Below, piece after piece: positions 11,208-56,611 of a stretch of 64,000 nt of DNA. The notes beneath the pieces were generated by a model. The model saw only the letters and a list, made by a program, of their open reading frames with translations. It did no database searches and was not told the DNA's origin. This DNA is from a virus. The stretch spans positions 26,535 to 90,534 of IMG/VR virus record IMGVR_UViG_3300025030_000067. One strand, given 5' to 3'. Position 1 is the stretch's first letter. Each line of letters starts with the position of its first letter. The translations under genes were made by a program, and so were the position numbers.

Positions 11208-14200
11208 CTATGCCTCCAACTGTTTAATGTGGCGTTCGAGCATGGCGCCGACTTCTGCCGAGCCTTGCTTGCCGAGCCGTTCATGACCTTTGTATTTAAG
11301 GATGTTTTTAGCTGTTTTGGCGTATTTTTCGGGGGTCGAATAATCCGGGTGGTCGGTGTTTATCCCCATGCCGCCGCGACCTTTTTTATCGTGCCGCTCG
11401 AATGCGTCGTGAAGTTCCTTGACCATCTCATGGTGAGGTTGCCCTTTTTGCGCGACATTCGCTGTTGCTCCGGATGCTGTGGTGCGAGTGTATGCAGCAT
11501 GATCGGAGTGCTGTGACTTGCGTAAGATATGCGCTACAGAGAGGGCACAACTTTTCCTGACTGGCTCCTGTACTGTTTTGGGGCTTCCGTCGCCCTTTGG
11601 TCGTTTCGACTTGATCAGGTACATTTCACGTCTCCTTCCCTTAAATAACCTCACTTGCAGTAGTCCTGAGTGATCACCCGGGAGATGATCGGCCATGGGC
11701 TCTTTGTTTTCTTTGGCCGGCATGTTTTCTTCTTTCCATTTTTCCCAATGGGTGTGGGCTCCGTGGACCTCTTCTTCTGCATCGAGTATCCGCTGCTTGG
11801 TGTGATCATCCAGTGTGCCCCAGTGGGGGAGGTGGGCGAACCGTTCCTGTCGCAGTTTATGGAGCTGGTGGCTGCTCTCGGTACGTGCCAGCTTGATTGC
11901 GTAACGCTTCACTCGGCTGTCTTCGTGGGCATCGATGTGTGCAAGTGCCCCGGATGCAGTCGTGCGGTCGTAGGCTGTGACGTGCGATTTCAGGAGCCGA
12001 ACGGCTGCGGTTTCGCTGCTGACTCGTCCTTGCCTGCCTGCTCTCGTTTGTTCTTGGGTTTCTTCTTTTTGGACTTTGCAGCTGCAGCTTTCTTCTTGTC
12101 CGCAACATCCATTGTGTCCGCATCCGCAAGAGCTTTTTTCAAGAGTTCCGACTTCTTCTTGTACTTTTCCTCGTCGCTTAATTCCGCCATTGCTTCCTCC
12201 GTGCGATTTTATCAGGTGTGTTAAGGCTGGCCGCTGTAATGACTTTTTCACACCATCATCGGAACTATTCACCTTGTCAAGAGCCTGCTTTACGACCTGC
12301 TCTTTGTTCTTTGGCTCCGCTGGTCCCGAGAACATGTCCACCTCGGGGTTTTCCCGGCTGGCAACCTCGTTTTTGATGCCGTTGCTGATGGCTCGGAAGA
12401 CGTTTTCCAACCTGTTGCGAGATCCGGCTCGGTCGCTGATCGCCAGTATCATGTCAACGGAGTGATCAGTTTTGAACTTCGGGGTGTCTCCGGTGAAGTC
12501 CAGCGAGCCAGCGTTTTTAAGAGTGTGCTCCAGCTCTGCCTTACTCTGGTTCTGGTGTGCCAGTGTGTACTCGATCGCTTCCATCATGTCCGGCACCACG
12601 TCCAGGTCGTCATGGCCTTTGATCTGGGCGAAGTCGCCGACGCACCCGTTCAGCGCCTTGAGTATGTTCCTGATCTTCGGCTTGGCGCTCTCGGCTTGCA
12701 GCTCGGTCAGCATGGAGCTGCCGTATACTTTCGTGAAGACCGCGTTCTGGATCCGCTCGATGCATTTCTTGTTCGGGTCGCCGTCAGCATCGCGCAGGCC
12801 GGCTGATTCGTTCTTGCCCAGCTTGTCGAGGAATCCATTGATGAAGTCCATATTTTCGTCGTTGTAGATTTCACCGTCTTCGTCGACCGCGAACTTCTTG
12901 AGCAGGCTGTCGTCGATTCTGGCCGAGTCATTCCATGCCTGTTCTGCTGGCGAAGAGCCGAGGTTGCCGGTGTCGTTGGCTTCTCTGGCAAACTCTGCCC
13001 GGTCGGTATTTTTGTCGTCATCGCTGCGGACTCTGACCAGTACCGGGTTTTTCATCTTCTCGACATCTTCCGGCTTTATGCCGAACGTGTCCGCTTCGCC
13101 TTTCAGCCATTCCTTGTAGTGATCCGCCAGTCCGCGCTTGTACGCTTCCGTCAGGGCGATGGTGCGACCATTGCCGCTTTCGACAGCTCCATCCTTGCCG
13201 ACGATTGGAGCGCCATGAGCAGCCATTGAACCGGCACCGAAAAGTTCCGGCTTGATATCGTTCATCATGTTTGCCATTTGCATCTGGCTCGATAGGCGTT
13301 CCCGTTCTCGGGGCTGTATCTCTTGAGGGTAAGCTCTGTTGATATGTCCCTGGATGGTGTGGGAGGTCGTCAAGTCGTCGGATTCCACCAGCGCATACTT
13401 ACTGCTGACCTCGTTCATCTTGGCCGTGTAGGCTTTGTTCTCTTTGCCCATGACGAACTTAGGCTCTTTCTTGCCGGTGTCCACGCTCTGGACTTCCTTC
13501 TTGCCCTGGAGGCTGGATATCTGCTCTTTGTCCTTGCTCGGGTCGCCACCGGCGAAGTGTACCGTGTGGCCGTCGCTATCCTTCGACATGATTATGGAGT
13601 GGCCGTCTTTCTCGTATTTCGTCGCGGTGCTGTCGCGATCGACCTGGTGACCGTAGTGCTTCAACAGCTTCTCGCGGTAGTCGTCAATGGCCGCCGTGTA
13701 GGTGTTGCTCCGGCTGGTGTTTATGTTCTTGAGTACTGAGACTGGGTCGTCGCTGGCTGCTGCGGCTTCGCGCATCTTCTTCATGCCGCGTTCGGCTGTC
13801 TGTAGAGCTCCGTTCTCCCGGTTCTTCGCCTTGATCTCTTCATGCTCCGGCATGTCTTCTTTTTTGCCGCCCTTGTGCCCTTCGATTGGCTTCACCTGAT
13901 GGACTTCGCGCTCTTTCCAGCCTCGGCTCTTGAGGTGTTCGGCCAGCTGATCGCCGTGTTTCAGTTTGGCTCCCGAGTGTATCTCTTCTCCATGCTCATT
14001 TTGGTGCTTGAGCACGTCCTGGTGCTTCTTGACACGTTTGTCGTCGTGCTCTTGCACTACCGAGCCGTCCTGCCTGGTATATTGCTTTACGTGGGACTTG
14101 ATCAGCATGGACCGATCCATGAGATTGTCGGCTCTCAGGCTCTTGGTGAATATGTCGATATCCATCAGCGCCTGTTCCCAATTATTGAACCGGATGGCCC

Positions 14201-15710
14201 GGTCGTCGAGATACACGTCCGCGATTGGCTTTCCGTCGTTGCTGTCTTCTGGTTGATCGGTTTTTTTGTTGATCTCGTCATATGGGATGTCGTTAAATCC
14301 GAGATAGCCTCGCAGTGCCGGTGTTTCCTGCCGAGTGGTGAAAATGATGATTTTCCATCCCGCTTGCTTAAGTGCCTGCATGGCTGCCGAGACTTGCGGC
14401 AACGGTTCTCCGAACGTCTCGGCCCCTTGCCATCCCTGCGAGTAATCGGCAATTACTCCGTCGAAGTCCACACAGATGGTCTTCTGGTGGATGCTTGCCG
14501 ACTTTCTGAGCGTGGTCTCTTCCCGCAGGCTTTTGAGGAAGCCGAGCAGCTCCTTGGCTCCCTTGGTCCTGGCTAGTCGTACCAGCGCCGTTTGCATATG
14601 CGACTTGACCGCCGCTGCGTCCCATCTGTCTACTGCTTCTGATCGAACACCTGTCCGGTTGAGCGCTGCCGCGATATCCTGTTCTTTGTATCCGTGGTCG
14701 AACCGACCAAGGCCGAATTTCATTTTGATTATGGCGGATGCAATCGGGTCGTCGAGTGCGTCCAGCTGCTCTGCGATACCGTTTGCGAGTCCTTCTTGTT
14801 TAGCTGCGTTCGATTCGTTGGCTGGTCCTACTGCGGCTTTTGCTGCGATATCGCGCATGCCTGTTTCGTAATCGTCTTCACCCTGGGTGTCGTATGACTG
14901 TTCTTCCTTCAGTCGGTCGTTGTTGGTGATCAGGTGGCGCATGGCCGCCGTCTTGCCGGTACGGGCTATCGTTTTGGCGACGTTGCTCTCTGATGCGGTG
15001 CCGGCCAGATAATTCTTGAACTCCTGTATGTCGGCATCGCTGGCGTTGGTTCCGGATGTTCTCAGGGCTCCGATCGCCGCCGTGATGTATTCGCTGTACA
15101 GTTCGTTCGCTGCCGGGTCATCGTTGTGGAGCACTCCGTTGGCGACAACGTAGTTCGGGTTATATCCGTTTCTGCTGGCCAGGTGTTTGAGCGTCCCTTT
15201 CATTCTGTCAACTATGGCCGGGTGCTGCAATATCTCCGCCTCTGGCATGCCAATGCGTTCCATCCCGACCAGCGCCCTGCGTGTGCTTTCCTCTGCCGTC
15301 ACACGGCCACCTGTGCCCTTTGGTGCTTTCTCCGCCGTATGCTCTTCTTCTGTCCAGATGTGGTCTCGGCTAATATCTTTTATATGCGGAGGGTTTAGTG
15401 TGTATCCTTCGCGTACTGGTTTAACTTCGTATCCGGTCTCGTGGCTGCCACCGACGATATGTCCGCGCTTTTTGCGGTTCATCTCCGGGGTGCGGTAGTA
15501 GATCTTTTCGCCATGTTTCGGCTCGGAGCTTTCTTTGCCTCGTACCTTCACCTTGCGTTGGTGTTCTGCGACTTGTGCGATGGCCCCTGACGCGAGGTGT
15601 CGTGTGCCTGCGTGTACCGTATGGACTTCTTCATGCTTGGGCGGCTGGTAGTCGAACAGGCTCATTTGTGATTTTCTGAGGTAGAAGAATTGCGTGATGT
15701 GTTTGATCAT
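11208..15710 (-). CDS. Giant polyvalent virion protein (1,500 aa): HAD and DdrB/ParB-like domains, repeated KS-HV-YTR modules
   Basis: Start chosen at the ATG five bases after GGAGG; a GTG four codons upstream overlaps that site. Domains, numbered from the GTG frame: 150-400 helical, with a region (about 325-390) resembling sigma-70 region 4 (weak); 415-510 HAD-type phosphatase (VDFDGVIADY, FTTR, DVYLDDR); 755-1140 DdrB/ParB-superfamily domain of phage polyvalent proteins (VESGNGRTIALTEAY). A Cys cluster (1199-1215) follows. L-x-K-S recurs at about 15, 405, 540, 1170, 1194, 1243, 1368 and 1400, several times followed by HV...Y-x-R-TTASGA. Polyvalent proteins are known to be carried with injected DNA and protect it; that role is inferred here. 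Confidence 0.75.
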   Translation of the reverse strand: MIKHITQFFYLRKSQMSLFDYQPPKHEEVHTVHAGTRHLASGAIAQVAEHQRKVKVRGKESSEPKHGEKIYYRTPEMNRKKRGHIVGGSHETGYEVKPVREGYTLNPPHIKDISRDHIWTEEEHTAEKAPKGTGGRVTAEESTRRALVGMERIGMPEAEILQHPAIVDRMKGTLKHLASRNGYNPNYVVANGVLHNDDPAANELYSEYITAAIGALRTSGTNASDADIQEFKNYLAGTASESNVAKTIARTGKTAAMRHLITNNDRLKEEQSYDTQGEDDYETGMRDIAAKAAVGPANESNAAKQEGLANGIAEQLDALDDPIASAIIKMKFGLGRFDHGYKEQDIAAALNRTGVRSEAVDRWDAAAVKSHMQTALVRLARTKGAKELLGFLKSLREETTLRKSASIHQKTICVDFDGVIADYSQGWQGAETFGEPLPQVSAAMQALKQAGWKIIIFTTRQETPALRGYLGFNDIPYDEINKKTDQPEDSNDGKPIADVYLDDRAIRFNNWEQALMDIDIFTKSLRADNLMDRSMLIKSHVKQYTRQDGSVVQEHDDKRVKKHQDVLKHQNEHGEEIHSGAKLKHGDQLAEHLKSRGWKEREVHQVKPIEGHKGGKKEDMPEHEEIKAKNRENGALQTAERGMKKMREAAAASDDPVSVLKNINTSRSNTYTAAIDDYREKLLKHYGHQVDRDSTATKYEKDGHSIIMSKDSDGHTVHFAGGDPSKDKEQISSLQGKKEVQSVDTGKKEPKFVMGKENKAYTAKMNEVSSKYALVESDDLTTSHTIQGHINRAYPQEIQPRERERLSSQMQMANMMNDIKPELFGAGSMAAHGAPIVGKDGAVESGNGRTIALTEAYKRGLADHYKEWLKGEADTFGIKPEDVEKMKNPVLVRVRSDDDKNTDRAEFAREANDTGNLGSSPAEQAWNDSARIDDSLLKKFAVDEDGEIYNDENMDFINGFLDKLGKNESAGLRDADGDPNKKCIERIQNAVFTKVYGSSMLTELQAESAKPKIRNILKALNGCVGDFAQIKGHDDLDVVPDMMEAIEYTLAHQNQSKAELEHTLKNAGSLDFTGDTPKFKTDHSVDMILAISDRAGSRNRLENVFRAISNGIKNEVASRENPEVDMFSGPAEPKNKEQVVKQALDKVNSSDDGVKKSLQRPALTHLIKSHGGSNGGIKRRGKVQEEVGTLEKSSCGCGHNGCCGQEESCSCKVQKEETQEQTRAGRQGRVSSETAAVRLLKSHVTAYDRTTASGALAHIDAHEDSRVKRYAIKLARTESSHQLHKLRQERFAHLPHWGTLDDHTKQRILDAEEEVHGAHTHWEKWKEENMPAKENKEPMADHLPGDHSGLLQVRLFKGRRREMYLIKSKRPKGDGSPKTVQEPVRKSCALSVAHILRKSQHSDHAAYTRTTASGATANVAQKGQPHHEMVKELHDAFERHDKKGRGGMGINTDHPDYSTPEKYAKTAKNILKYKGHERLGKQGSAEVGAMLERHIKQLEA

Positions 15711-15752: not shown

Positions 15753-15765
15753 TGTGGCGTATATC
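15753..15765 (+). promoter_or_regulatory. Dispersed operator-like motif (variant)
   Basis: TGTGGCGTATATC followed by AAATTGTTTGCCG. The extended sequence closely matches the copy at 27453, including the downstream GTTTGCCG. It lies in the divergent region between the giant protein gene and the candidate RNA. Confidence 0.55.
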
Positions 15766-27334: not shown

Positions 27335-27411
27335 TTCACATCTCCGTGTGCGTCCCGATTATTCTCTGTGCCCAGGACGGTCGGAGTTCCGTCTTTTCTC
27401 CCGCTAAAGAT

Positions 27412-27448
27412 AGGGCACAGCATGTCTTGTTAGACAATACTGTGCCCT
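27412..27448. promoter_or_regulatory. Long double-stem hairpin next to an operator motif
   Basis: AGGGCACAG (27412-27420) pairs with CTGTGCCCT (27440-27448), and inside it TGTCT pairs with AGACA across a TGTT loop. There is no T-run on the minus strand after it. The operator motif follows five bases later. It could terminate or process the transcript from the gene at 27483-27725. Confidence 0.5.
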
Positions 27449-27452
27449 AATT

Positions 27453-27465
27453 TGTAGCGTATATC
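27453..27465 (+). promoter_or_regulatory. Dispersed 13-bp operator-like motif
   Basis: Exact TGTAGCGTATATC followed by AAACTGTTTGCCG, closely matching the extended copy at 15753. Orientation is opposite to the neighbouring minus-strand genes. Confidence 0.6.
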
Positions 27466-27872: not shown

Positions 27873-28864
27873 TCCCCGCCATGGACGTATCCCAGCTTCG
27901 CCTCGTGGTAGGGTAGCGACACCGGCAGACCCTCAATGGTCCTCCAAGCTGTGTAGAGGTCGATCAGGAACATCTTGACCATGTAGCGCATCGCGGCGTT
28001 GTGTCGGTGCCCCTTCTCGCTCACGGTTTTCTCTTTGCCCTTGTCGTTGGTTTCGGTTCGGTCCTTCCAGTTGGTGTGATTTTCCAGACGGTTCTTGTAG
28101 TCGTCATATATCGTCCGGTATTTGCTCTCACCGGCTCTCAGGAAGCTGCTGGCGAGCACTCCCATCAGTTTTGTTTTGAGGAATGGGTTGAATGTGATTC
28201 CGTTCCTGATCGCTGAGTTACCTTCTTTGTCGATATACGCTACAGTCTGGAGATGCTCTTTCCTTCGTGATCGGCCTTTGCCATCATCTGCGCAGTCGAG
28301 TCCTGCATACTTCCAGATGCTGCTCGGGTGTCTGGACTTGGTGATGTCGATCTCGCTGATGATCACTCCTGCCATGGCTGGGCCTATGCCTCTGACGCCT
28401 TCGAGGAATTCGACGTATATCGGGTAATCTTCGAGTATCTTGCCGAGCATCCGGAAGTGCCGGTTCTCTTGGGATTCGAGGTCTTTGTATTGCGATATCA
28501 GGCAGAGCTCCGTGTAGTCACTGATCACTGGATTTCCCTTGAATTTCTTTTTGCTGGGCAGGCCGTCTGCCGTCAGTAGTGAGTAGTGTTTATCGAGCAG
28601 TTGGGACACAAGCCCTGCGATCTTCTTTTCTTCTTTTTCCGTCTGTTCCAGCTCCGCGACTGCTCCGGTGGTGACCAGTTTGTTGGCATTCCGTATCCGT
28701 GCCAGCAGTTGCTGCGATTCGGCGTCGAGTCCTTCTTCTGGTTCGCTTGGTGCCTGGCCGAGTTTGGCCTTGAAGTTGCCGACTATCCTGTTTCCGGTTT
28801 GGATGCGGAGCTTCTGGATGTCGTAGCTCCCTCTTACGATGGTTTTCAGATTTCCTGCTGACAT
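27857..28864 (-). CDS. tas: Tas protein: Nop/IS110-C-terminal-like guide-RNA-binding protein without nuclease domain (TasA-like)
   Basis: 335 residues. Residues 60-150 are helical with a coiled coil. Residues 152-190 carry FLEGVRGIGPAMAGVIISEI and SSIWKYAGLD, the Transposase_20 signature of IS110 C-terminal domains, which is related to the Nop domain of box C/D RNP proteins. The N-terminal DEDD/RuvC catalytic domain of IS110 transposases is absent, and no HNH motif is seen, so this is not an active transposase. Flanking 36-bp dual-spacer arrays on both sides identify it as a TIGR-associated protein. With no fused nuclease it matches the TasA type and would bind DNA under RNA guidance. Ribosome-binding site AAGGAGG at the edge of the right array. 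An operator-like motif copy (28232-28244) lies inside the gene. Confidence 0.85.
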   Translation of the reverse strand: MSAGNLKTIVRGSYDIQKLRIQTGNRIVGNFKAKLGQAPSEPEEGLDAESQQLLARIRNANKLVTTGAVAELEQTEKEEKKIAGLVSQLLDKHYSLLTADGLPSKKKFKGNPVISDYTELCLISQYKDLESQENRHFRMLGKILEDYPIYVEFLEGVRGIGPAMAGVIISEIDITKSRHPSSIWKYAGLDCADDGKGRSRRKEHLQTVAYIDKEGNSAIRNGITFNPFLKTKLMGVLASSFLRAGESKYRTIYDDYKNRLENHTNWKDRTETNDKGKEKTVSEKGHRHNAAMRYMVKMFLIDLYTAWRTIEGLPVSLPYHEAKLGYVHGGEKQAA

Positions 28865-31447: not shown

Positions 31448-31620
31448 GCGGCTTCTCCGGTACTTCTTGTTGATATTGATATTTCGATGTTGGTGCGACA
31501 GTTCGGGCAGATCACGATGGCTGCCAGCTTGGTTTCGTCGGGTCCGCAGACCACGTCCTTATGGGTGAGGTCGGCGTTGATTGCTTTGTTGCAGTTCGGG
31601 CATCCCGTGAACAGTGTCAT
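31420..31620 (-). CDS. Small zinc-ribbon protein (66 aa)
   Basis: Start taken at the MTLFTGCPNC ATG, which overlaps the upstream gene (ATGA); the frame is open further upstream. Two CxxC pairs (CPNC, CPNC) about 31 residues apart form a zinc ribbon. Confidence 0.6.
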   Translation of the reverse strand: MTLFTGCPNCNKAINADLTHKDVVCGPDETKLAAIVICPNCRTNIEISISTRSTGEAACPTSPTTR

Positions 31621-32457: not shown

Positions 32458-32491
32458 GGTATACGCTACAGCTTTTTAGATATGCGCTACA
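32458..32491 (-). promoter_or_regulatory. Tandem pair of operator-like motifs
   Basis: Two minus-oriented copies (32458-32470 TGTAGCGTATACC; 32479-32491 TGTAGCGCATATC) repeat every 21 bp, that is two helical turns, upstream of the 32400-start operon. This is the only tandem pair noticed. Confidence 0.65.
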
Positions 32492-36133: not shown

Positions 36134-36373
36134 CTATTTTCCTCCGGTTGCAGGTGCTTCTATGTCTGCCCAGTGGCTGGGGTGACTATTTCTCATGGCT
36201 GGTTTGCCACTCAGCCTGTCCTTGTCGTGTTCCCAGTGCGGCTGCGGTTTTTTGTAGAACTCATCCTCATCCCATCTTCCAAATACCATGTTTATTCCGT
36301 TAAAAATTGGTTCTGGGTAGTAGAGCAGTATCCGTCTATCTTTTGGAGCGGTTTCTATTGGCTGCCAGTTCAT
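36134..36373 (-). CDS. DUF551-like phage protein (79 aa)
   Basis: Begins MNWQPIETAPKDRRILLYYPEP and ends PSHWADIEAP, the conserved 'W.pi.taPkd..ill...' and 'THWmplP' ends of DUF551, a family common in phage accessory regions. Confidence 0.75.
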   Translation of the reverse strand: MNWQPIETAPKDRRILLYYPEPIFNGINMVFGRWDEDEFYKKPQPHWEHDKDRLSGKPAMRNSHPSHWADIEAPATGGK

Positions 36374-46772: not shown

Positions 46773-46800
46773 TTTATTTTTTTATTAGCCGTGATATAAT
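46773..46800 (+). promoter_or_regulatory. Possible repressor-gene promoter
   Basis: A perfect TATAAT (46795-46800) lies about 108 bp upstream of the repressor start; TTTATT 16 bp before it is a weak -35. The same GATATAATTGCG decamer context occurs in the strong promoter at 20179. Confidence 0.5.
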
Positions 46801-46907
46801 TGCGTAAAGTTGAAACTTATTCGTGTTTTATAGCATTAAAAATAATGTGTCAACAGTTATTTATATGTCTCTCTCTTTTCTTTATTTACGGTTGGAGGGG
46901 AGGTGGT

Positions 46908-47552
46908 ATGGGGATTGGAGAGAGATTTAAAAAAGTCAGGGTGTGTTTGGGGTTATCTCAACCTGAAATGTCAGAGCGAATCAGTCTGTCACGTAATGCC
47001 TGGCAGACGTATGAACTTGAGCGTTCTACTCCTGGGACGGCTGTATATCAATCGTTGCTGAATTTGGGTTTCTCTGTTGATTGGATTCTAAACGGTGTTG
47101 GGACGATGAAAATAAATGAGGCTGAACATGCTTTACAAGGTTATTCATTTTTGCCGTTATACGCGACGGTCGGCAGCATGGGACCAGGCAGCGTCGGTGA
47201 TGATCGAGTTATTGATTGGCTTGCATTCAAGGATGAATGGTTACGCCTTGAATTGCGGACGTCTGCCGTGAACTTGGCTCTTATTGTCGCCGAGGGCGAT
47301 TCCATGTTACCGACCATTAACCCGGGAGATATGTTGGTTGTTGATCACTCCCGCAGCGCTTTATCTGGTGATGGTGTCTATGTGCTCAGTCTGTTTGGAA
47401 ATTGCCTTGTGAAGCGTGTTCAGGTTCTTGTCGATGGCTCAGTAACCATTGTTTCCGACAATCCGGCATATGCTCCGCAGATCGTTAAGAGTGCCGAACT
47501 TGATGGGTTGCATATCGCTGGCCGTGTTGTCTGGCACGGAAAGAGGGTATAA
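46908..47552 (+). CDS. cI: CI-type phage repressor with S24 peptidase domain
   Basis: 214 residues from the ATG after GGAGGGGAGG; the frame extends 36 codons upstream but is unlikely. Residues 1-65 are an XRE helix-turn-helix (KKVRVCLGLSQPEMSERISLSRNAWQTYE). The C-terminal part is a LexA/CI S24 fold: EGDSMLPTINPGD (nucleophile Ser about 128), LVKRVQ (general-base Lys about 166) and a likely cleavage region near TVGSMGPGS. It would maintain lysogeny and be cut on RecA activation. It overlaps the integrase gene by one base. Confidence 0.92.
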   Translation: MGIGERFKKVRVCLGLSQPEMSERISLSRNAWQTYELERSTPGTAVYQSLLNLGFSVDWILNGVGTMKINEAEHALQGYSFLPLYATVGSMGPGSVGDDRVIDWLAFKDEWLRLELRTSAVNLALIVAEGDSMLPTINPGDMLVVDHSRSALSGDGVYVLSLFGNCLVKRVQVLVDGSVTIVSDNPAYAPQIVKSAELDGLHIAGRVVWHGKRV

Positions 47553-49100: not shown

Positions 49101-49141
49101 TTTCAGTATACGCTACAATCGTTCACCATTTTATACTGAAA
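49101..49141. promoter_or_regulatory. Inverted repeat enclosing an operator motif, upstream of the tandem-HTH gene
   Basis: TTTCAGTATA (49101-49110) and TATACTGAAA (49132-49141) form a perfect 10-bp inverted repeat. A minus-oriented motif copy (49105-49117, TGTAGCGTATACT) overlaps its left arm. The site lies 33 bp before the next gene and looks like a combined operator. Confidence 0.6.
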
Positions 49142-49173: not shown

Positions 49174-49752
49174 ATGGAATTCGCCGAAGTCTTGCGTAGC
49201 CGTCGTGAGGAATTAAAGCTGGGTGTTCGTGAGTTAGCTCGTGCCACCGAGAAGCCCTGGGTGCCCCAACCGATCAAGTCAGCCATTTATATCAGCCGTC
49301 TCGAAAACAAGGTGGTTGAGGAGATGCGTGCCGAAGCGATCTCTATCGACAAGCTTTGGGCACTTGGTGTTGCTCTACAGGTGTCGCCATTGGTGTTGTT
49401 GGCTTCGAGTCGGAACATGCCATCGCTGCTGGATGTTGTCTCTACGTTTGCATTGCGAGATTGCGCACCTGTTCCGTTCTCGTCTTTTTTGAAGGACAGG
49501 CGGAATGGGCTCGATCTCACGCTGTTGGGTGTAGAGGAAATGTCCCTGTCGGTATCTCCCTGGTCTATTTCAACTGGATATCTGTCGCAGCTTGAGACCA
49601 ACGTCGACGATCTGTCGGAGCGGTTGTCCGCCGAGAAGCTGTGGACGCTTGGCCGAGTATTCGACGTGGATCCTTTGTTGATGTATGTCCTCTCTCGTGG
49701 GATTGATCCAATGTATTTGTCGTCGGCTTCTCGCGACCGGCTATTTTCCTGA
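49174..49752 (+). CDS. Protein with two tandem XRE-like helix-turn-helix domains (192 aa)
   Basis: Start at the ATG after GGGAGG. Residues 1-75 and 98-175 are two similar domains: FAEVLRSRREELKLGVRELARATEK...YISRLEN and FSSFLKDRRNGLDLTLLGVEEMSL...YLSQLET, each ending in a 'W.LG..L.V.PL' helix. An internal duplication of an XRE fold is evident. It may be the regulator that reads the nearby operators, for example a second repressor or antirepressor. Confidence 0.72.
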   Translation: MEFAEVLRSRREELKLGVRELARATEKPWVPQPIKSAIYISRLENKVVEEMRAEAISIDKLWALGVALQVSPLVLLASSRNMPSLLDVVSTFALRDCAPVPFSSFLKDRRNGLDLTLLGVEEMSLSVSPWSISTGYLSQLETNVDDLSERLSAEKLWTLGRVFDVDPLLMYVLSRGIDPMYLSSASRDRLFS

Positions 49753-49811: not shown

Positions 49812-50210
49812 GTGAGCGGCAATCAGTTTGACATACGCCACAGCGGTGTGTATGCTTCCCCAATGCTAGATATTGACGACCCGTGGGTGAATCCTGCCCC
49901 TGCGTTATTCATACCAAAGCAAAAACCGGAACGGGACGAGGATTATTTAGCGTTCATCCGGACTCTGCCTTGTTCAAAATGTGGTCGCCCAGCTCCTTCT
50001 TGTGCTCATCACCATCCCCTCGCTGGTCATTCATCCACTGGTTCAAAAACTTCTGACTACAGGAGCGTTCCGCTCTGCTGTGAGTGCCACATTCCTGGAG
50101 TTCACCAGTATGGCAAGCTCACCTTTTGGGGTAATTTGGAAGCTGTCGAGGATCTTATCGCCAGGCTTAACATTCGCTATTTTTTTGGCGCTAATGTAGC
50201 GCATATCTAA
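49812..50210 (+). CDS. HNH/DUF968-like protein (132 aa, GTG start)
   Basis: [53 protein letters not shown] has the CxxC...HH...CCxCH arrangement of small HNH-like phage nucleases (DUF968/NinG-like), between recombination genes. GTG 49812 has GGGGGG upstream; ATG 49863 is an alternative. A motif copy (49830-49842) lies in the first codons, and another overlaps its final codons. Confidence 0.65.
50195..50207 (+). promoter_or_regulatory. Dispersed operator-like motif (variant)
   Basis: TGTAGCGCATATC overlaps the end of the HNH-like gene and lies just before the SSB ribosome-binding site AGGAGG. Confidence 0.6.
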
Positions 50211-50224: not shown

Positions 50225-50647
50225 ATGTCATCGCTTAACAAGGTTATGCTGATCGGTCGGCTGGGCAAGGATCCAGAGGTAAAATTCACCAGTTCCGGCA
50301 CCGCTGTCTGTAATTTCAGTCTCGCTACTTCGGAGACGTTTAAGGACAAGTCCGGCGAGAAGCAGGAAAAAACGGAGTGGCACAACGTGCAACTCTGGCA
50401 GAAGCTTGCGGAGATTGCTGGTGAGTATCTGATTAAAGGTTCCCTGGTGTACATCGAGGGGCGTCTGCAGACTCGTAAATGGCAGGACAAAGAGGGTAAC
50501 GATCGCTACACAACTGAGATTGTCGGTGAGCGCATGCAGATGCTGGGCAGCAAAGGTGATGGCGGGAGGTCTGATCGCGCCGCTTCCGGTTCTCAGTCTT
50601 CTGGTTATGAGAATAGCTCTATGCCGGATGATGACGTCCCGTTTTGA
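50225..50647 (+). CDS. ssb: Single-stranded DNA-binding protein
   Basis: 140 residues. [35 protein letters not shown]...[51 protein letters not shown] is a complete OB-fold SSB, followed by a Gly/Ser tail and the acidic tip DDDVPF that docks on repair proteins. Strong site AGGAGGTAA. Confidence 0.97.
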
Positions 50648-51193: not shown

Positions 51194-51331
51194 TGTAGCG
51201 TATATCTAACTATTTGCTTGACGTTCTGGTTTTCGTATCGTAAGTATCCTGAAAATTAAATATGACTATGCTGTATGCAGACAGCTTGTTCAACCTTTCC
51301 CTTAGTCGGGTTTTCTCGGCTGTTGGATGAA
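51194..51331 (+). promoter_or_regulatory. Leader element A: operator motif, promoter-like boxes and leader RNA
   Basis: Exact TGTAGCGTATATC, then TTGACG 11 bases later, TAAGTA 17 bp after it, then TCCTGAAAATTAAATA. The first 70 bp align without gaps with the element at 54704. It ends in the terminator at 51332-51370, so transcripts may be short unless read-through occurs. The next gene is the replication initiator. Confidence 0.65.
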
Positions 51332-51370
51332 ACCCTCATCAGGATCTGCATATCCTGGTGGGGGTTTTTT
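51332..51370 (+). terminator. Intrinsic terminator before the replication genes
   Basis: ACCCTCATCAGGAT pairs over 14 bp (two G-T pairs) with ATCCTGGTGGGGGT, followed by TTTTTT. A strong attenuator-type terminator in the leader of the replication operon. Confidence 0.9.
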
Positions 51371-51392
51371 ATTTGGCTATTAAGGAGCATTC

Positions 51393-52139
51393 ATGGCTCG
51401 CATCAGGACGATAAAACCGGAATTTCCACAGTCTGAGAGCATGGGGCGTGTTTCTCGTGATGCCCGGTTGCTCTTTATCATGCTTTGGACACTTGCTGAC
51501 GATGCCGGGAGGCTTCGAGGAAATTCGCGAATGCTCGCGAGCCTTCTTTTCCCTTACGACGAACTCTCAGCGGAAACTATCGATGAGTGGATGAACACTC
51601 TCGAATCCGAGGGGTGTGCGCTCCGGTACTCTGTTGATGGAACGCATTATGTTCAGATATGTAACTGGCTGGATCATCAGAAGATTGACAAGCCGAGCAA
51701 GTCAAAAATTCCATTGCCTCCTGATAATTCGCGAACAGTCGCGAACACTCTCGACGATTCGCGAGGTGTCGTGACAGGAAAGGACCAAGGAGAGGATCGA
51801 GGACTGGATCATGGAGAGGATCGAGGACCAGGGGAAGGTGAGGTTGTCGTAGATATTCATTCTCCTACTCGGTTGACTTGTACTGACGTTCGGTTTCTCT
51901 TTCAGGCTTCTTTTGGAATACAAATGCCGGCTGGGGCAAATAACGTTGCTGTTGAAATCTGCGAGCGATACACCGCCGCTGCCATTAAAGACGCCTTTGA
52001 AATTGCTTCCGTTCAGAACAAACCTAATCTGGCGTATGTCCGGGGAGTTCTTGTGGGTGTTTCGCAGCCATCACCTAAAGCCGGTCTGGGCGTGATGAAG
52101 GTCGTTGCCAGCTCCGACCCCGAGTATTACAAATCATGA
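51393..52139 (+). CDS. Phage replication initiator-like protein (248 aa)
   Basis: MARIRTIKPEFPQSESMGRVSRDARLLFIMLWTLADDAGRLRGNSRMLASLLFPYDELSAETIDEWMNTLE is the winged-helix N-terminal domain of phage replication proteins of the O/DnaD-like kind. A flexible Gly/Asp/Glu linker (about 105-150) and a helical C-terminal domain follow. It is coupled (ATGA) to a DnaC-like loader, the usual pair for origin melting and helicase loading. Confidence 0.82.
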   Translation: MARIRTIKPEFPQSESMGRVSRDARLLFIMLWTLADDAGRLRGNSRMLASLLFPYDELSAETIDEWMNTLESEGCALRYSVDGTHYVQICNWLDHQKIDKPSKSKIPLPPDNSRTVANTLDDSRGVVTGKDQGEDRGLDHGEDRGPGEGEVVVDIHSPTRLTCTDVRFLFQASFGIQMPAGANNVAVEICERYTAAAIKDAFEIASVQNKPNLAYVRGVLVGVSQPSPKAGLGVMKVVASSDPEYYKS

Positions 52140-52822
52140 GTGCCTCTTGTTCCATCCATAATGAAAATATACCTTGCGTGGTGTGTGAGCTGCTTCGTTC
52201 TGACCGTGAACGTATCGAAGTTTTAAGAGCCGCGAATGAGGCTACTATTTTGGCCGACCGGTTCAAGTCTGTTGGTATTGGCCTACGTTTTCAACACTCC
52301 GTCTGGTCTGATTACAAGTTGGTGGCTCCTGCTGCTGGCACCGCTATCGCTGCGTGCCAGAAATATGCTACGGACGACTCCTTGGATGTTGGTCGTAATC
52401 TGCTACTGCTTGGGGCTCCTGGCACTGGAAAGAATATGCTTGCTGCCCTGGTGTGCAAAGACTTGGTGGCTGGTGGTCGTATCGTGCTCCATACCACCGT
52501 TGCCAAGCTGGTCCGGCGCATTCGGGACTCCTGGCGTGGTGGTACGTTCGGAGATGGTGAGACGGCGGCGTTCGAGATATTTACGACGCCTGACTTATTG
52601 GTGCTTGACGAGATCGGAGTGCAGCGAGGCAGCGAGGATGAGGCCCGGATTGTCTTCGACGTTCTCAATGATCGATACGATGCCATGAAGTCCACCGTAC
52701 TCATATCGAATGAGCGGCTGTCGGATATTGAGTCGTATCTTGGAAAGCGCACCATGTCTCGGATTTTAGAACAGCACGTCCTGGTTCCGTTTACTTGGGC
52801 GGATTATCGGTGCCGGCCATGA
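52136..52822 (+). CDS. DnaC-like helicase loader ATPase
   Basis: 228 residues. Walker A GAPGTGKN (about 98-105), Walker B LLVLDEIG, sensor I STVLISNER, and an Arg-finger region GKRTMSRILEQH make up an AAA+ ATPase of the DnaC/IstB type. An N-terminal Cys/His segment (CSIHNENIPCVVC) may bind zinc. Acts with the upstream initiator to load the replicative helicase. Confidence 0.92.
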   Translation: MSASCSIHNENIPCVVCELLRSDRERIEVLRAANEATILADRFKSVGIGLRFQHSVWSDYKLVAPAAGTAIAACQKYATDDSLDVGRNLLLLGAPGTGKNMLAALVCKDLVAGGRIVLHTTVAKLVRRIRDSWRGGTFGDGETAAFEIFTTPDLLVLDEIGVQRGSEDEARIVFDVLNDRYDAMKSTVLISNERLSDIESYLGKRTMSRILEQHVLVPFTWADYRCRP

Positions 52823-52983
52823 AAGTAATCACTCTCTCGGATCAGCTCGAATGGAGCCGGTCTTGTTTGAAAAAAATGCAGGACACTCGCAGGCCGCAGG
52901 AAGAGGTGGACCTTCAGGAGTCTGTCTGCTGGACGCTAGAAGCGAGAATTCAGGAAAAGACAGCGGTTGCTGGTGTTTTGTAA
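52819..52983 (+). CDS. Small helical protein (54 aa)
   Basis: ATGA overlap with the loader gene. SDQLEWSRSCLKKMQDTRRPQEEVDLQESVCWTLEARI: helical, no family. Overlaps the next frame. Confidence 0.5.
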   Translation: MKVITLSDQLEWSRSCLKKMQDTRRPQEEVDLQESVCWTLEARIQEKTAVAGVL

Positions 52984-53407
52984 AGCTGGCCGTTCATACG
53001 ATGCTCTCCATCCTACGTGCAAGAGCTGCGAGCGACAGGCTGCCATGGTGTGCCGTGGGTCTCTGCAGGCCAAGGCCAGCAAGCATGGCAACACGAAGAT
53101 TGAAGTTGATGGAATAAAGTTTGATTCGAAGCGGGAGGCCGCTCGGCACCTTCACCTACTGATGTTGTTGCGAGCGGGGATGATCAGCGATTTGAAGCTT
53201 CAGGTTCCTTTTGTGCTGCAGCCGGCAGTGGTCTTGGATGGCAGAAAAAAACCGGCTTTACGGTATTTTGCCGACTTCACTTATCTGGAGCGTGGTCGCC
53301 TGGTGATCGAGGATGCAAAGTCGCCGCACCTTCGGAAGCATCCAGTGTACCGGAATAAAAAACACCTGATGATGTCGGTTCTTGGTCTGGCTATCACGGA
53401 AGTTTGA
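52967..53407 (+). CDS. DUF1064 phage endonuclease-like protein (TTG start)
   Basis: Residues 36-146: SKHGNTKIEVDGIKFDSKREAARHLHLLMLLRAGMISDLKLQVPFVL ... RYFADFTYLERGRLVIEDAKSPHLRKHPVYRNKKHLM are the DUF1064 core, with the PD-(D/E)XK-like D-F...E-D-x-K residues. An N-terminal HPTCKSCERQA zinc knuckle precedes it. The start is uncertain: TTG 52967 or further in. Confidence 0.78.
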   Translation: MLVFCKAGRSYDALHPTCKSCERQAAMVCRGSLQAKASKHGNTKIEVDGIKFDSKREAARHLHLLMLLRAGMISDLKLQVPFVLQPAVVLDGRKKPALRYFADFTYLERGRLVIEDAKSPHLRKHPVYRNKKHLMMSVLGLAITEV

Positions 53408-53435
53408 TCATTGTGGCGTCTGGTCTTGTGCCGTG

Positions 53436-53448
53436 TGTAGCGTATGTC
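53436..53448 (+). promoter_or_regulatory. Dispersed operator-like motif (variant)
   Basis: TGTAGCGTATGTC, five bases before the ribosome-binding site TTGGAGG of the 38-residue gene. Confidence 0.6.
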
Positions 53449-53464
53449 GATCTTGGAGGTTTTT

Positions 53465-53581
53465 ATGGTATGGGTATCTGATTCTGGTAACAGGCTGTCA
53501 AAAATAGAGATCGAAGCGGCGCATGCCGAGGGGCTGTTTACCGATGCCGAGTACCTGTTTTATCTCTCGGAGGTGGTGTAA
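53465..53581 (+). CDS. Micro-protein (38 aa)
   Basis: ATG after TTGGAGG; sequence ends AEGLFTDAEYLFYLSEVV, helical and acidic. Overlaps the next start by one base (TAATG). Confidence 0.5.
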   Translation: MVWVSDSGNRLSKIEIEAAHAEGLFTDAEYLFYLSEVV

Positions 53582-53652
53582 TGGCCTTTGTAACGTTGGG
53601 TGGCTTGGCATGTTTGCTCTTCTGCCTCTGGGAAATTGCACATGGGAGATAG
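53581..53652 (+). CDS. Single-span membrane micro-protein (23 aa)
   Basis: MAFVTLGGLACLLFCLWEIA is one hydrophobic helix; GGAGG lies 6 bases before the ATG. Possibly a small lysis or signalling peptide, but too short to be sure. Confidence 0.4.
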   Translation: MAFVTLGGLACLLFCLWEIAHGR

Positions 53653-53659
53653 AGCTTTG

Positions 53660-53851
53660 ATGATGCCGATCGCTGGGCTTTCGTTTGCTGATGTCTCTCT
53701 TGCTGCAATGGAGTGCCATGGGAACAGGGTACGCACTGCCAAACGTCTCGGAGTTGGCACGCGGTCCCTTGATGCTGCAATCGATCGAGAAGGTTTGCAG
53801 CGGTGGTTCGTGTCAGGCCGTGGCCGGGGTGTTCGACCCCGTTCGATATGA
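53660..53851 (+). CDS. Fis-type helix-turn-helix protein (63 aa)
   Basis: Start at the ATG 9 bases after GGGAGAT. FADVSLAAMECHGNRVRTAKRLGVGTRSLDAAIDREGL is the Fis/NtrC C-terminal helix-turn-helix. It is followed directly by a second small DNA-binding gene. Confidence 0.75.
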   Translation: MMPIAGLSFADVSLAAMECHGNRVRTAKRLGVGTRSLDAAIDREGLQRWFVSGRGRGVRPRSI

Positions 53852-54031
53852 GTGACTCGTGAGCAGATTGTCGAACAGGCACTCGCTGGGTATTTGCGCG
53901 AAGACGCTGCCGAAATTCTTGGAATCTCCAAGGGCTATCTGCGGGATTTATGCGAGCGGTTCAGTATTACGGAATTTTCCGAAAATCGCGGCTATCGTGT
54001 CCGGGTTGGGTTGAGAGGTTATTGTGGGTAA
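53852..54031 (+). CDS. Small helix-turn-helix protein (59 aa, GTG start)
   Basis: IVEQALAGYLREDAAEILGISKGYLRDLCERFSITEF: a helix-turn-helix (AAEILGISKGYLRDL) with wing-like tail. GTG immediately follows the upstream TGA; overlaps the next gene's GTG. Confidence 0.6.
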   Translation: MTREQIVEQALAGYLREDAAEILGISKGYLRDLCERFSITEFSENRGYRVRVGLRGYCG

Positions 54032-54200
54032 ATACAAAGGGACTGAGGCTCGGTACAACGTATTGAGCGTGCGCTTGGATGATGATCTGGCGGAGTCGGT
54101 TCGTTCGCTGGTCCCGGTCGGCGTAACTTTAAGCGACTACTTGCGGGAGCTTTTTCGCCGCGAATGTAGCGCATGTCAAAATATCAAGGAGGCGGTATGA
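54024..54200 (+). CDS. Ribbon-helix-helix-like protein (58 aa, GTG start)
   Basis: YNVLSVRLDDDLAESVRSLVPVGVTLSDYLRELFRREC: a beta-strand with alternating residues then two helices, the CopG/Arc layout. A motif copy (54165-54177) lies in its last codons. ATGA overlap with the next gene. Confidence 0.62.
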   Translation: MGKYKGTEARYNVLSVRLDDDLAESVRSLVPVGVTLSDYLRELFRRECSACQNIKEAV

Positions 54201-54532
54201 CACAAATTGGTCTTGATTTTTCTGCTGGCGAATCGTTGAAAGAGTCGGGTATTTCAGCTGTTCTTGCGAGCGCTGACGCCGCGAATTTTAACTGGACCGA
54301 CTATGCCTTGTCTCTCCTGGAATACTTCGCAAAAAGCGTCCGACAGTTTTCTTCTGATGAGTTTCGGGCGCACTTTGTTAACCAGTTACCGGAACCTCCG
54401 CATCCGAACGCCTTTGGAGCGCTTTTCAATCGTGCCGCCAAGGCAGGCATCATCCGTCACGTCGGATATATAAAATCCGTTCGGGCTTCCGCTCATCGAC
54501 GGGTAGTTGGTGTCTGGCAGGTGGCAGTATGA
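54197..54532 (+). CDS. Winged-helix phage protein (111 aa)
   Basis: Start at ATG after AAGGAGGC. FRAHFVNQLPEPPHPNAFGALFNRAAKAGIIRHVGYIKSVRASAHRRVVGVW resembles phage winged-helix proteins ('P.d.rA.G.....A.r.GlI...g...s.r...H......W.'), common next to replication genes. Confidence 0.65.
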   Translation: MTQIGLDFSAGESLKESGISAVLASADAANFNWTDYALSLLEYFAKSVRQFSSDEFRAHFVNQLPEPPHPNAFGALFNRAAKAGIIRHVGYIKSVRASAHRRVVGVWQVAV

Positions 54533-54696
54533 ATCCGGTCTGGGTGGCTTTTTGTTGTGGACTTTTCCTTGGATCGATCGCTGGTATAATGGTGATTGCG
54601 CTCTGCATGGCTGCGAAGCGTGGCGACGATCTTCCTCTTTGTCATTGCGACGATGCGGAACAAGGAAGGGCTTGCGGATCGTGTGATCGTCCATAG
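54529..54696 (+). CDS. Small membrane protein with Cys-rich tail (55 aa)
   Basis: VWVAFCCGLFLGSIAGIMVIALCMAA is one membrane helix; the cytosolic tail CHCDDAEQGRACGSCD holds five Cys. ATGA overlap with the upstream gene. Confidence 0.55.
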   Translation: MNPVWVAFCCGLFLGSIAGIMVIALCMAAKRGDDLPLCHCDDAEQGRACGSCDRP

Positions 54697-54703
54697 GGTA
54701 ATC

Positions 54704-54832
54704 TGTAGCGTATGCCTAAATTATCACTTGCATCTGTTTTGCCGATATGGCACTGTTCCTGAAAATTAAATAGCAACCGCTGGTCCAGAGCGTGTTTAAA
54801 TTATGGTGGATCCGGGAAACCGGTTGCACCCG
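54704..54832 (+). promoter_or_regulatory. Leader element B, homologue of the one at 51194
   Basis: TGTAGCGTATGCC, then CACTTGCAT in the register of TTGACG, and TCCTGAAAATTAAATA at the same distance, with no gaps against element A over 70 bp. It ends in a terminator before the cytosine methylase gene. Confidence 0.65.
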
Positions 54833-54869
54833 CCCCTGAGGAAGCTGGACCCTTCCGATGGGGTTTTTT
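54833..54869 (+). terminator. Intrinsic terminator before the cytosine methylase gene
   Basis: CCCC...GGAAG pairs with CTTCC...GGGG (with a 3-base internal loop), followed by TTTTTT. Parallels the terminator at 51332. Confidence 0.8.
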
Positions 54870-54880: not shown

Positions 54881-54893
54881 TGTAGCGTATATC
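54881..54893 (+). promoter_or_regulatory. Dispersed 13-bp operator-like motif
   Basis: Exact TGTAGCGTATATC followed by AAT, between the terminator and the methylase ribosome-binding site AAGGAA. Confidence 0.6.
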
Positions 54894-54922: not shown

Positions 54923-56611
54923 ATGACTCCTTTAATCCTGAAATACCGTGACCGGTTTCGTAAATTTCCCCAGCTGGACATGAATTTTGGGGAGCTGATT
55001 ATTGACAACTTTGCTGGAGGCGGTGGTGCCTCCACCGGTATCGAGAAAGCTATTGGCCGTCCGGTCGATATCGCTATTAATCATGATCCAGGTGCTGTGG
55101 CTATGCACGAGACCAACCATCCTCAGACTCGGCATTTTTGCGAGTCTGTGTGGGATATTGATCCGCGAGAAGTATGTGCTGGCCGTCCGGTAGGCCTGGC
55201 GTGGTTTTCTCCGGACTGCAAGCATTTCAGTAAAGCAAAGGGTCGGAAGCCAGTCGAGAAGAAGATACGGGGGTTGGCTTGGGTTGTGTTGCGCTGGGCT
55301 GCTACGGTTCGCCCCAGGGTAATTATGCTGGAAAACGTGGAAGAGTTTGTCACGTGGGGTCCGCTGGTTACCGATCCTAATGGCGATTGCTACCCGTGCC
55401 CCAAAAACAGGGGTCGCACGTTTCAGTCTTTTGTGAATGCTTTGCGCCGGCAAGGTTACAAGGTTGAGCACAAGGAACTCCGTGCCTGTGATTATGGGGC
55501 TCCAACGATCCGAAAACGGTTGTTTCTGATTGCTCGTTGCGACGGGCAGTCAATTGTCTGGCCGGAACCAACTCACGGTGACCCGAAGGGTGAGCCAGTG
55601 AAGAGTGGGCAACTTGCGCCCTGGCGTACTGCCGCCGAATGTATTGACTGGAGCATCCCGGCGCCATCCATTTTTGAACGCAAAAAGCCGTTGGCAGATG
55701 CCACGTTGCGGCGGATTGCCAAGGGTATCATGCGTTACGTGGTGAATAACCCTGATCCGTACATTGTGACCTACTATGGCTCGAAAGGACCGGACTTTCG
55801 TGGGCAGCCGTTGGACGAGCCGTTAAAAACTCAGACGACGGAAAATAGGCATGCTTTGATTGTTCCCTCCATTATTCCAATCGCCAATTACAACGGCAGC
55901 AACACTGCGCATCCCGCTGACGACCCATTGCGAACAATAACAGCTTGGCCTAAGGGTGGCCACTTCGCTCTCTGTTCTGCTTTCCTCGCCAAGCACTACG
56001 GTGGCGTAGTGGGGCATGGGGTAGAACAACCGACTGGCACGGTAACGACCGCCGATCACCATTCAGTCGTAACAGCCTCGCTTATCCGCCAATTCGGTCA
56101 GAGTGTCGGCTCGTCTCCCTCGGCACCGGTAGGTACTATCACCTCGGGTGGTCTTGGAAAGACCGGATTGATTGCGTCGCACCTGGTTAAGCTGCGGGGA
56201 ACTTGCAGGGACGGCCAGCGCGTGACCTCTCCGATGCCCACCTGCACCGCCTCCGGAACCCATGTTGGTGAGGTGCGCACTTTCCTGCTGAAATATTATG
56301 GCAGCGACCAAGACCCTAAAATGGGCGACCCGCTCCACACCATCACCACTCGTGATCGTTTTGGCTTGGTAACTGTCCGTGGCGAGGAATATCAGATAGT
56401 AGATATCGGAATGAGAATGCTGGCGCCTCGCGAATTGTTCCGTGCCCAGGGCTTCCCTGAGAATTACATAATCGACCGGGACTCGCATGGAAAACCAATC
56501 ACTAAAACGGAGCAGGTTGCTCGTTGTGGGAATTCGGTTTGCCCTCCAATGTCCGAGGTATTGGTACGGGCAAACATGGTCGAAGCGGAAGTGTTAAGGA
56601 AGAAAGCCTGA
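54923..56611 (+). CDS. C5-cytosine DNA methyltransferase
   Basis: 562 residues from the ATG after AAGGAAC. LIIDNFAGGGGASTGIEKAIG (SAM motif I), WFSPDCKHFSKAKG (catalytic Cys; SPDC replaces the usual PPCQ), MLENVEEFVTWG (ENV, motif IV), DYGAPTIRKRLFLIAR (motif VIII) and the late M-L-A-P-R-E-L-F-R-A-Q-G-F-P plus GNSV motif X are all present. The centre is an unusually long target-recognition region with repeated 'T.T....GHF/GLV' phrases. Protects phage DNA or modifies it. Confidence 0.93.
   Translation: MTPLILKYRDRFRKFPQLDMNFGELIIDNFAGGGGASTGIEKAIGRPVDIAINHDPGAVAMHETNHPQTRHFCESVWDIDPREVCAGRPVGLAWFSPDCKHFSKAKGRKPVEKKIRGLAWVVLRWAATVRPRVIMLENVEEFVTWGPLVTDPNGDCYPCPKNRGRTFQSFVNALRRQGYKVEHKELRACDYGAPTIRKRLFLIARCDGQSIVWPEPTHGDPKGEPVKSGQLAPWRTAAECIDWSIPAPSIFERKKPLADATLRRIAKGIMRYVVNNPDPYIVTYYGSKGPDFRGQPLDEPLKTQTTENRHALIVPSIIPIANYNGSNTAHPADDPLRTITAWPKGGHFALCSAFLAKHYGGVVGHGVEQPTGTVTTADHHSVVTASLIRQFGQSVGSSPSAPVGTITSGGLGKTGLIASHLVKLRGTCRDGQRVTSPMPTCTASGTHVGEVRTFLLKYYGSDQDPKMGDPLHTITTRDRFGLVTVRGEEYQIVDIGMRMLAPRELFRAQGFPENYIIDRDSHGKPITKTEQVARCGNSVCPPMSEVLVRANMVEAEVLRKKA

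Follow-up and report, generated by a model that had tools for sequence, protein, structure and literature searches.

Twin leaders with complementary hairpin and terminator loops ahead of the replication-initiator and cytosine-methylase genes of a putative temperate phage

The IMG/VR virus record IMGVR_UViG_3300025030_000067 (90,534 bp; here G000) was analysed over a stretch of 64,000 nucleotides, bases 26535-90534 of the record, which we refer to as the window; its genes read as those of a temperate phage. The structural genes of G000 encode a portal-like protein and a terminase-like ATPase, and its genes for lysogeny and DNA functions encode an integrase, an S24/CI-like repressor, SSB, a lytic transglycosylase, a replication initiation protein (rep), a DnaC-like loader and a C5 methylase. 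Our subject is a pair of leader elements, one directly ahead of the rep gene and one directly ahead of the methylase gene, each of which contains two hairpins (H1 and H2) followed by an intrinsic terminator (T); in both, the predicted loop of H1 is an exact complement of the loop of the terminator. The leaders were compared with those of three relatives: G001 (95,051 bp), G002 (89,819 bp) and G003 (the record of locus L056).

Architecture of the two leaders

The features at the locus are as follows (window positions):

50225-50647, + strand: SSB gene (PF00436, E 5.6e-43), upstream of the rep leader
51194-51206, + strand: asymmetric 13-bp motif TGTAGCGTATATC, a probable repressor site, 0 mismatches, upstream of the rep leader promoter
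51218-51246, + strand: promoter-like boxes of the rep leader, TTGACG-N17-TAAGTA, with the -35 at 24 bp from the motif start and a weak -10
51247-51262, + strand: 16-bp block TCCTGAAAATTAAATA, predicted to lie over the transcription start, offset 53 from the motif start
51270-51285, + strand: rep H1 in the minimum-free-energy (MFE) fold, GCUGU-AUGCAG-ACAGC, loop AUGCAG at 51275-51280
51298-51327, + strand: rep H2 in the MFE fold; 11 pairs are kept in G002, 3 with compatible changes
51329-51370, + strand: rep intrinsic terminator with U-tract, loop CUGCAU at 51346-51351; covaries with G002
51393-52139, + strand: replication initiation protein gene (phrog_1408, E 3.7e-33; phrog_2149, E 1.4e-32)
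54704-54716, + strand: motif copy TGTAGCGTATGCC, 2 mismatches, upstream of the methylase leader promoter
54728-54756, + strand: promoter-like boxes of the methylase leader, TTGCAT-N17-CACTGT, at offsets equal to those of the rep leader, with a poor -10
54757-54772, + strand: second copy of the 16-bp block, identical to the rep-leader copy, offset 53
54778-54792, + strand: methylase H1, CGCU-GGUCCAG-AGCG, loop GGUCCAG at 54782-54788
54805-54830, + strand: methylase H2 in the MFE fold
54832-54869, + strand: methylase intrinsic terminator with U-tract, GGAAG-CUGGACC-CUUCC, loop CUGGACC at 54845-54851
54881-54893, + strand: motif copy, exact, lying after the terminator and ahead of the methylase start
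54923-56611, + strand: C5 cytosine DNA methylase gene (PF00145, E 3e-28)

The terminator hairpin of the rep leader (51329-51368) is predicted to form 17 pairs at -25.6 kcal/mol, with the apex AGGAU-CUGCAU-AUCCU, and its loop is the exact 6-nt complement of the H1 loop (AUGCAG/CUGCAU). The methylase terminator hairpin (54832-54864) folds at -14.9 kcal/mol; here the exact complement (GGUCCAG/CUGGACC) extends over 7 nt and takes in the entire loops. The complementarity ends at the loop edges, save for one extra pair on each side in the G000 rep leader; the stems are otherwise unrelated, and the loops of the two G000 leaders do not cross-pair. As predicted from sequence and folds, this loop complement is the main feature to have escaped an earlier sequence-only reading of the locus. 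That reading had each element ending in a strong terminator before a major gene, which the folding energies, U-tracts and family matches bear out; it had also called the leaders poorly conserved, which is correct for their sequence but not for their architecture, since the order H1, H2 and terminator and the complement between the H1 and terminator loops are common to both. No Rfam family matches either leader at E up to 10, the sole gathering-threshold match in the window being int-alpA (27353-27420). A leader peptide was rejected, because the 22-codon open reading frame that begins at 51262 and ends at the terminator in G000 is not matched in the remaining leaders. G000 and G002 could also form an antiterminator stem, GGGUUUUC/GAAACCC, in competition with the terminator, but by eye it is weaker than H2.

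The succession of promoter, leader, intrinsic terminator and gene, as far as it can be read from sequence, is the anatomy of an attenuator. One could instead picture a function at the level of DNA, in which the hairpins are single-strand structures for replication initiation and no RNA leader is made; one copy does adjoin the replication initiator gene, but the other sits ahead of the methylase, the U-tracts follow the terminator hairpins on the coding strand only and promoter boxes precede them, and we regard a DNA-level role as very improbable.

Aligned without gaps from 51194 and 54704, the twin elements share 44 of 70 positions, as the sequence-only reading had indicated: 11 of the identities fall in the 13-bp motif, 16 in the block TCCTGAAAATTAAATA and 17 (of 40 positions) elsewhere, the last figure being marginal because 71 of 2000 dinucleotide shuffles equalled it. 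The equal spacing of motif, -35-like TTG and 16-mer is likewise real, with the -35 placed 24 bp after the motif start and the 16-mer at offset 53. As regards the promoter-like boxes, the -35 does occur at a common offset, but the '-10' is weak in both (TAAGTA and CACTGT). The boxes lie at constant offsets of 24 and 47 from the motif start, the -35 being 24 bp away in the rep and methylase leaders of both G000 and G002 and 23 in the leader of G001; the -35 boxes of these five leaders are TTGACG, TTGCAT, TTGCTA, TTGATA and TTGCTA, and the -10 boxes at 17-bp spacing are TAAGTA, CACTGT, TAAGTT and TATTGT.

A search for the 16-bp block elsewhere, which had been proposed as a check, finds no copies in the 90,534-bp record beyond these two, also when 2 mismatches are tolerated. 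For two of the 29 motif sites to share 16 identical nt at one offset is well beyond chance (a maximum of 10 nt in 60 shuffles). Nevertheless the block does not have the central place that the sequence-only reading gave it: it is absent from the matching offset in the G002 leaders, and is special to G000, and it lies at the predicted transcription start, outside the regulatory core. As a conserved RNA or antitermination element it was set aside, given this absence from G002 and 15 exact matches in IMG/VR, a number close to chance; the spaced pattern of motif and block is found in just 3 contigs. Pairing of the block with a terminator arm, seen in prefix folds, was also dropped because the predicted start falls within the block.

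Recurrence and covariation in related phages

Complementary loops occur in six leaders: the rep and methylase leaders of both G000 and G002, the one leader of G001 and the rep leader of G003. G002 repeats the twin arrangement of G000, with one leader before a replication gene and one before a C5 methylase gene. Its rep leader, which follows SSB and transglycosylase genes as in G000, has the loops UGGCAG/CUGCCA; its methylase leader, which lies downstream of a motif copy with TTGATA at offset 24, has UGUCGG/CCGACA and was found blind, at the predicted place, by the unbiased scan described below. In G001 the leader is downstream of SSB, again with UGGCAG/CUGCCA, and directly behind it come a DUF559-like gene and then a homologue of replication protein O. 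G003 is a phage without the 13-bp motif of G000, its rep N-terminus being 75% identical; its rep leader carries AGUGACGG/UCCGUCAC, which form 7 pairs (7/8 loop bases). An SSB gene lies upstream of the leaders in G001, G002 and G003 as well. The earlier suggestion of paralogous attenuators or small RNAs named the right class of element, one that recurs in G002 before the same two kinds of gene.

The genes behind the leaders are far less alike. The rep proteins of G000 and G002 have no BLASTP similarity (E 16) and different best families (phrog_1408 versus phrog_1701); the methylases both belong to PF00145 and are very divergent, with a BLASTP match of only 24 aa. Judged from these sequences, both G002 leaders have been retained while the genes behind them were exchanged.

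The unbiased scan covered 1937 terminator-like hairpins in 2.1 Mb and required a complement of at least 6 nt in an upstream hairpin. It returned 9 rows, or 7 distinct terminators; 8 rows (6 terminators) were the six leaders listed above and 1 (L170) lay elsewhere. Among strong terminators alone there were 8 rows in 801, against a permutation mean of 1.5 and a maximum of 6. The striking part is the concentration of the complements in rep and methylase leaders, not the scan-wide excess. Loop-loop energies for the matched pairs lie between -6.2 and -11.3 kcal/mol; no mismatched combination is stronger than -4.9, excepting those of G001 with the G002 rep leader, which have identical loops.

The G000 and G002 rep leaders do align (score 85; shuffle maximum 36), as, less well, do the G002 rep and G000 methylase leaders (36; shuffle maximum 29); most other pairs of leaders show no sequence alignment, so that in those cases the common architecture does not simply reflect similar sequences. 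In the rep leaders of G000 and G002, all 39 pairs of H1, kissing helix, H2 and T are standard in both (78/78 cells). Fourteen of the 39 pairs have changed; in 6 of these both sides changed, and two of the 6 are within the kissing helix. Structures slid along the sequences as a control pair in 42-51% of cells; shuffling within the two sequences, a weak control, gave a value as high in 9 of 500 trials.

These data bear on the plainest account of the locus, that strong terminators block read-through between operons and that the complementarity with H1 is a coincidence. Inter-operon terminators among early phage operons are ordinary, and the motif copies already suggest read-through barriers. However, six leaders have whole-loop complements, two pairs are compensated within an alignable pair of leaders, both leaders are retained although the genes behind them have been swapped, and the promoter spacing is conserved ahead of each; simple insulation is, in our judgement, improbable.

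Among 80 rep loci from IMG/VR, a comparable leader was present just in G003; when these 80 upstream regions were taken together with the 4 leaders already known, terminator-like hairpins occurred in 9, and L005, L007, L011 and L021 had no 6-nt loop complement. A search for relatives with the leader pattern gave just G002, and a search with the transglycosylase protein gave no further ones. The operator-promoter pattern was found at 3 loci, in genomes whose motif counts resemble background. As a separate observation, the rep leaders of L015 and L021 have a hairpin-like element, the apical GGGCUUGCAACC of which is complementary to an upstream 12-mer; possibly this is another attenuator design. 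The scan for loop complements found no comparable leader in HK022, P4 or bases 1-50000 of P1, its one match in HK022, among 67 terminators, being at 31553 in the helicase gene.

The last result is relevant to two alternatives that are modelled on known phage RNAs. As described in PMC9378689, HK022 putL and putR are two paralogous RNAs of ~70 nt with two stem-loops, situated near early promoters and acting on termination. The G000 elements, as predicted from their folds, would resemble them as two paralogous, short, structured RNAs with two hairpins near the early promoters of a temperate phage, and H1 plus H2 could load on RNA polymerase and carry it past adjacent and downstream terminators. 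This reading gains from the fact that the SSB-to-rep operons have to cross the terminator, and from our finding in G000, G001 and G002 no NusG paralogue that would perform antitermination instead. Against it, the G000 elements include a terminator whose loop pairs with H1, a kissing arrangement not described for put RNAs in PMC9378689, where the word 'kissing' has no occurrence; complementarity restricted to the terminator loop favours the terminator rather than opposing it; the shape of H2 varies among the leaders; and HK022 itself lacks a comparable leader by our scan. We consider put-like antitermination unlikely. Control by antitermination, as originally proposed for the pair, finds no support here: no NusG paralogue was found in G000-G002 and no Rfam match, and a complement confined to loops would tighten the terminator.

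The other alternative is that the terminated leader is itself a small regulatory RNA in the style of P4 CI RNA/seqA or Gifsy-1 IsrK, pairing in trans through its H1 or T loop, with the nascent leader or with other transcripts, to set immunity or copy number, the gene being expressed by read-through. According to PMC4825925, P4 turns off its replication genes via premature termination, for which pairing between RNAs is required, and IsrK is known in terminated and read-through forms. The likeness extends to a prophage leader RNA, premature termination before replication or antirepressor genes and RNA-RNA complementarity; the G000 leaders, too, precede replication genes, and their loops are exposed complements. 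But P4 and IsrK pair with a processed RNA in trans; in G000 the complement is in the cis terminator loop, 60-70 nt away, where it would outcompete pairing in trans, and it is different in each twin. Moreover, the twin loops do not pair with one another, Rfam gives no match, and in P4 the scan found no kissing terminator. A trans-acting small RNA is also an unlikely explanation; as to possible partners in trans, the analysis covered exact copies of the loop sequences within G000.

Plasmid rep attenuation of the pT181/pIP501 type combines an intrinsic terminator in the rep leader with kissing loops, an antisense RNA and a competing antiterminator stem. The G000 leaders have in common with it the intrinsic terminator in a rep leader and the kissing loops; it differs in that the plasmids rely on an antisense RNA, transcribed from the opposite strand, and on an antiterminator stem that competes with the terminator. 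In G000 no antisense partner was found, and no search aimed at one was made.

A putative self-kissing attenuator

The anatomy of repressor site and promoter, the folds, the loop complementarity, the covariation and the recurrence are all features of the sequences as predicted or compared above. Bearing these in mind, we hypothesize that the two elements are repressor-gated transcription attenuators in which the terminator is clamped by a kissing loop in cis and termination is the default; we give this reading a probability of about 0.5. We infer the start sites, the formation of the kissing pair, its favouring of termination and the relief of termination. A 13-bp repressor site 24 bp upstream of the -35, probably bound by a tandem-XRE protein (see below), would control a weak sigma70-like promoter. 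Transcription would start ~7 nt after the -10 and give a leader of ~110-120 nt containing H1, H2 and T. If ~14 nt are hidden within RNA polymerase, the loop of T would emerge at about the time the enzyme reaches the U-tract; it could then pair over its full length with the loop of H1, forming a cis kissing-loop pseudoknot that clamps T. By default, most transcripts would end at T and release a compact structured RNA, and the rep initiator or methylase would be made only upon failure of the clamp or of T, or with a modified polymerase. In a lysogen, bound repressor and clamped terminator would together place a double lock on both genes. Since the twins have different loop sequences, each terminator would be gated privately.

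The choice of a clamp over a competing structure follows from where the complementarity lies. It is limited to the loops and the stems are unrelated, so the kissing pair and the terminator hairpin can coexist, and for this reason a clamp is favoured over a competitor; it speaks, too, against pairings that would exclude one another and against an origin of H1 by inverted duplication of T.

A number of points weigh on the other side. The rep terminator is already strong alone (-25.6 kcal/mol), so that a clamp may be unnecessary for termination, and the kissing structure may serve the released RNA instead; the clamp itself is proposed from sequence. H1 is absent from the MFE fold of the G000 methylase leader when 120 nt of upstream sequence is refolded freely, and in the G002 rep and G001 leaders further pairing reduces the H1 loop to 4 nt, GGCA. 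The promoters have weak -10 boxes, and G001 shows no convincing one. Over the scan as a whole the excess is modest (9 rows versus a permutation mean of 3.1 and a maximum of 11 in 500 permutations), and scans with stricter stem rules got back some of the leaders but not all. A scan in which the upstream fold was fixed at 120 nt recovered just the G000 rep and G003 leaders, along with two low-complexity matches. Common descent of all six leaders is not established, because most pairs do not align; the methylase genes of G001 and G003 are without such a leader, and there is none at the G001 motif site at 36283.

Of the three components, attenuators, kissing loops and twin phage RNAs, none is new in itself, and a limited literature search on kissing and terminators found no paper that joins the three in this way. 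We raise tentatively, as a proposition slightly less likely than not, that the self-kissing terminator is an undescribed class of phage leader: one gated in cis, occurring as paired, mutually insulated copies before replication and DNA-modification genes, and kept as a module while the genes are swapped, across phages with different dispersed motifs (G000-G002 versus G003). If the kissing pair does alter termination, the leader would be a compact RNA logic element in which the terminator's own loop is the input and a change of 6-7 nt, of the sort that the phages have apparently made, could switch the specificity. It would likewise illustrate the means by which a temperate phage places a double lock, of dispersed repressor sites and attenuation, on its replication and methylation genes.

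The dispersed 13-bp motif and its candidate binder

Upstream of the rep leader the following features were noted:

49105-49117, - strand: motif copy with 2 mismatches, ahead of the gene for the tandem-XRE protein, where it overlaps the promoter-like -10 TACAAT
49174-49752, + strand: gene for the tandem-XRE protein, the candidate motif binder (192 aa; two helix-turn-helix domains predicted), between the integrase and the SSB operon
49828-49856, + strand: promoter TTGACA-17-TATGCT with its -35 in a reverse-oriented motif, preceding the HNH-SSB-transglycosylase genes that lead to the rep leader

The operator that the sequence-only reading had assigned to the twin elements is real but not specific to them, being one of 29 dispersed, oriented sites. 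With up to 2 mismatches the motif occurs 29 times in G000, 21 in G001 and 20 in G002; the reversed pattern occurs 0-2 times, and dinucleotide shuffles of G000 and G002 gave 0-4. When the G000 copies are assigned to classes from the gene map, partly by hand, 20 of the 29 are co-oriented with transcription (16 in gene gaps, 4 in genes), 8 are reversed and upstream of gene starts, and 1 is reversed inside a gene. Most of the 16 co-oriented gap copies lie just ahead of a ribosome-binding site. The reversed copies supply a -35 (TTGACA or TTGATA): for 11 of the 13 reversed promoter copies of G000 and G002 a -10 matching in 4/6 positions or more is present at 16-18 bp, which is the case for 1 of the 16 co-oriented gap copies of G000 and for 3 of the 15 remaining sites of G002. 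In G001 (28730-28767) and G002 (~87655-87693) an inverted pair of motifs, ~13 bp apart, spans the rep leader promoter, with the second, reversed copy covering the -35 and spacer; G000 retains the upstream copy only. G002 also has a motif-like TGTAGCGCATAATG at the methylase start. The motif was considered as an ops/RfaH-like element (GTAGCG) and this was rejected, as G000-G002 have no NusG domain and the promoter copies are in the untranscribed orientation.

The tandem-XRE protein shares 51% identity with the corresponding proteins of the two other motif-bearing phages, G001 and G002, and a profile search of IMG/VR confirmed relatives only in these; among 398 Pseudomonadota genomes, a search that had no positive control, the profile found none. 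Its sequence gives weak matches to HTH_31 (N-terminal half) and HTH_3. The AlphaFold model (pLDDT 83) has two similar helical halves, the C-terminal one matching the XRE domains of P22 c2 and 434 Cro (Z ~7; matches mainly over residues 98-183); there was no TipsytheTRex chain among the structural matches listed, and the profile against solved structures gave 2 weak, unrelated rows at E up to 1 and no repressor. Because protein and motif co-occur in G000, G001 and G002, the tandem-XRE protein is probably the motif binder, with the S24/CI-like protein at 46800-47549 as an alternative.

At the promoters of mycobacteriophage L5, operator copies overlap the -35. Cluster A mycobacteriophages (L5) have ~20-30 asymmetric 13-bp sites, oriented with transcription in gene gaps, and the L5-group repressor is small with two DNA-binding domains, as given in PMC9283540 and PMC6550527. 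The G000 motif is like these stoperators in copy number, in 13-bp asymmetry, in orientation and in its overlap with the -35, and a two-domain fold is predicted for its candidate repressor; it differs in sequence and belongs to an unrelated phage, and the tandem-XRE profile matches no solved repressor. By this comparison of sequences the motif appears to be a separate, dispersed, oriented operator of the L5 stoperator kind, and the tandem-XRE protein with its oriented 13-bp sites would then be the second such case, apparently independent of the first, from a group of unrelated phages. P1, which is of similar size (94.8 kb), also has scattered monovalent C1 operators, including at ssb, c4 and kilA/repL (record annotation), with a sequence that differs from the G000 motif.

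A different asymmetric 13-mer, AACCACCAGTTAA, is dispersed over G003, with 9 sites at up to 2 mismatches, all on one strand (reversed control 2), for example at 3303, 6836, 14924, 37462 and 84708; it is found upstream of the rep leader and methylase as well, and from its sequence appears to represent a system of this type whose specificity is different. An exact motif lies within an IS110-like transposase gene of G000 (28232-28244, - strand) and recurs with 1 mismatch in the G002 homologue at 18119. Tandem motif copies 21 bp apart in a co-directional gene gap (32458-32491, - strand) are kept in the close relative L106 (5417-5449). The int-alpA RNA (RF02996, 38.8 bits; window 27353-27465) lies directly downstream of a reversed motif (27453) with the -35 TTGATA and precedes a gene for an HNH endonuclease, which makes it one more structured leader that follows an operator-promoter. 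Finally, a reversed motif lies in the promoter, at 15753, of the gene for a 1500-aa protein (11208-15710, - strand) with a ddrB-like ParB domain (PF18763), which recalls DdrB of P1.

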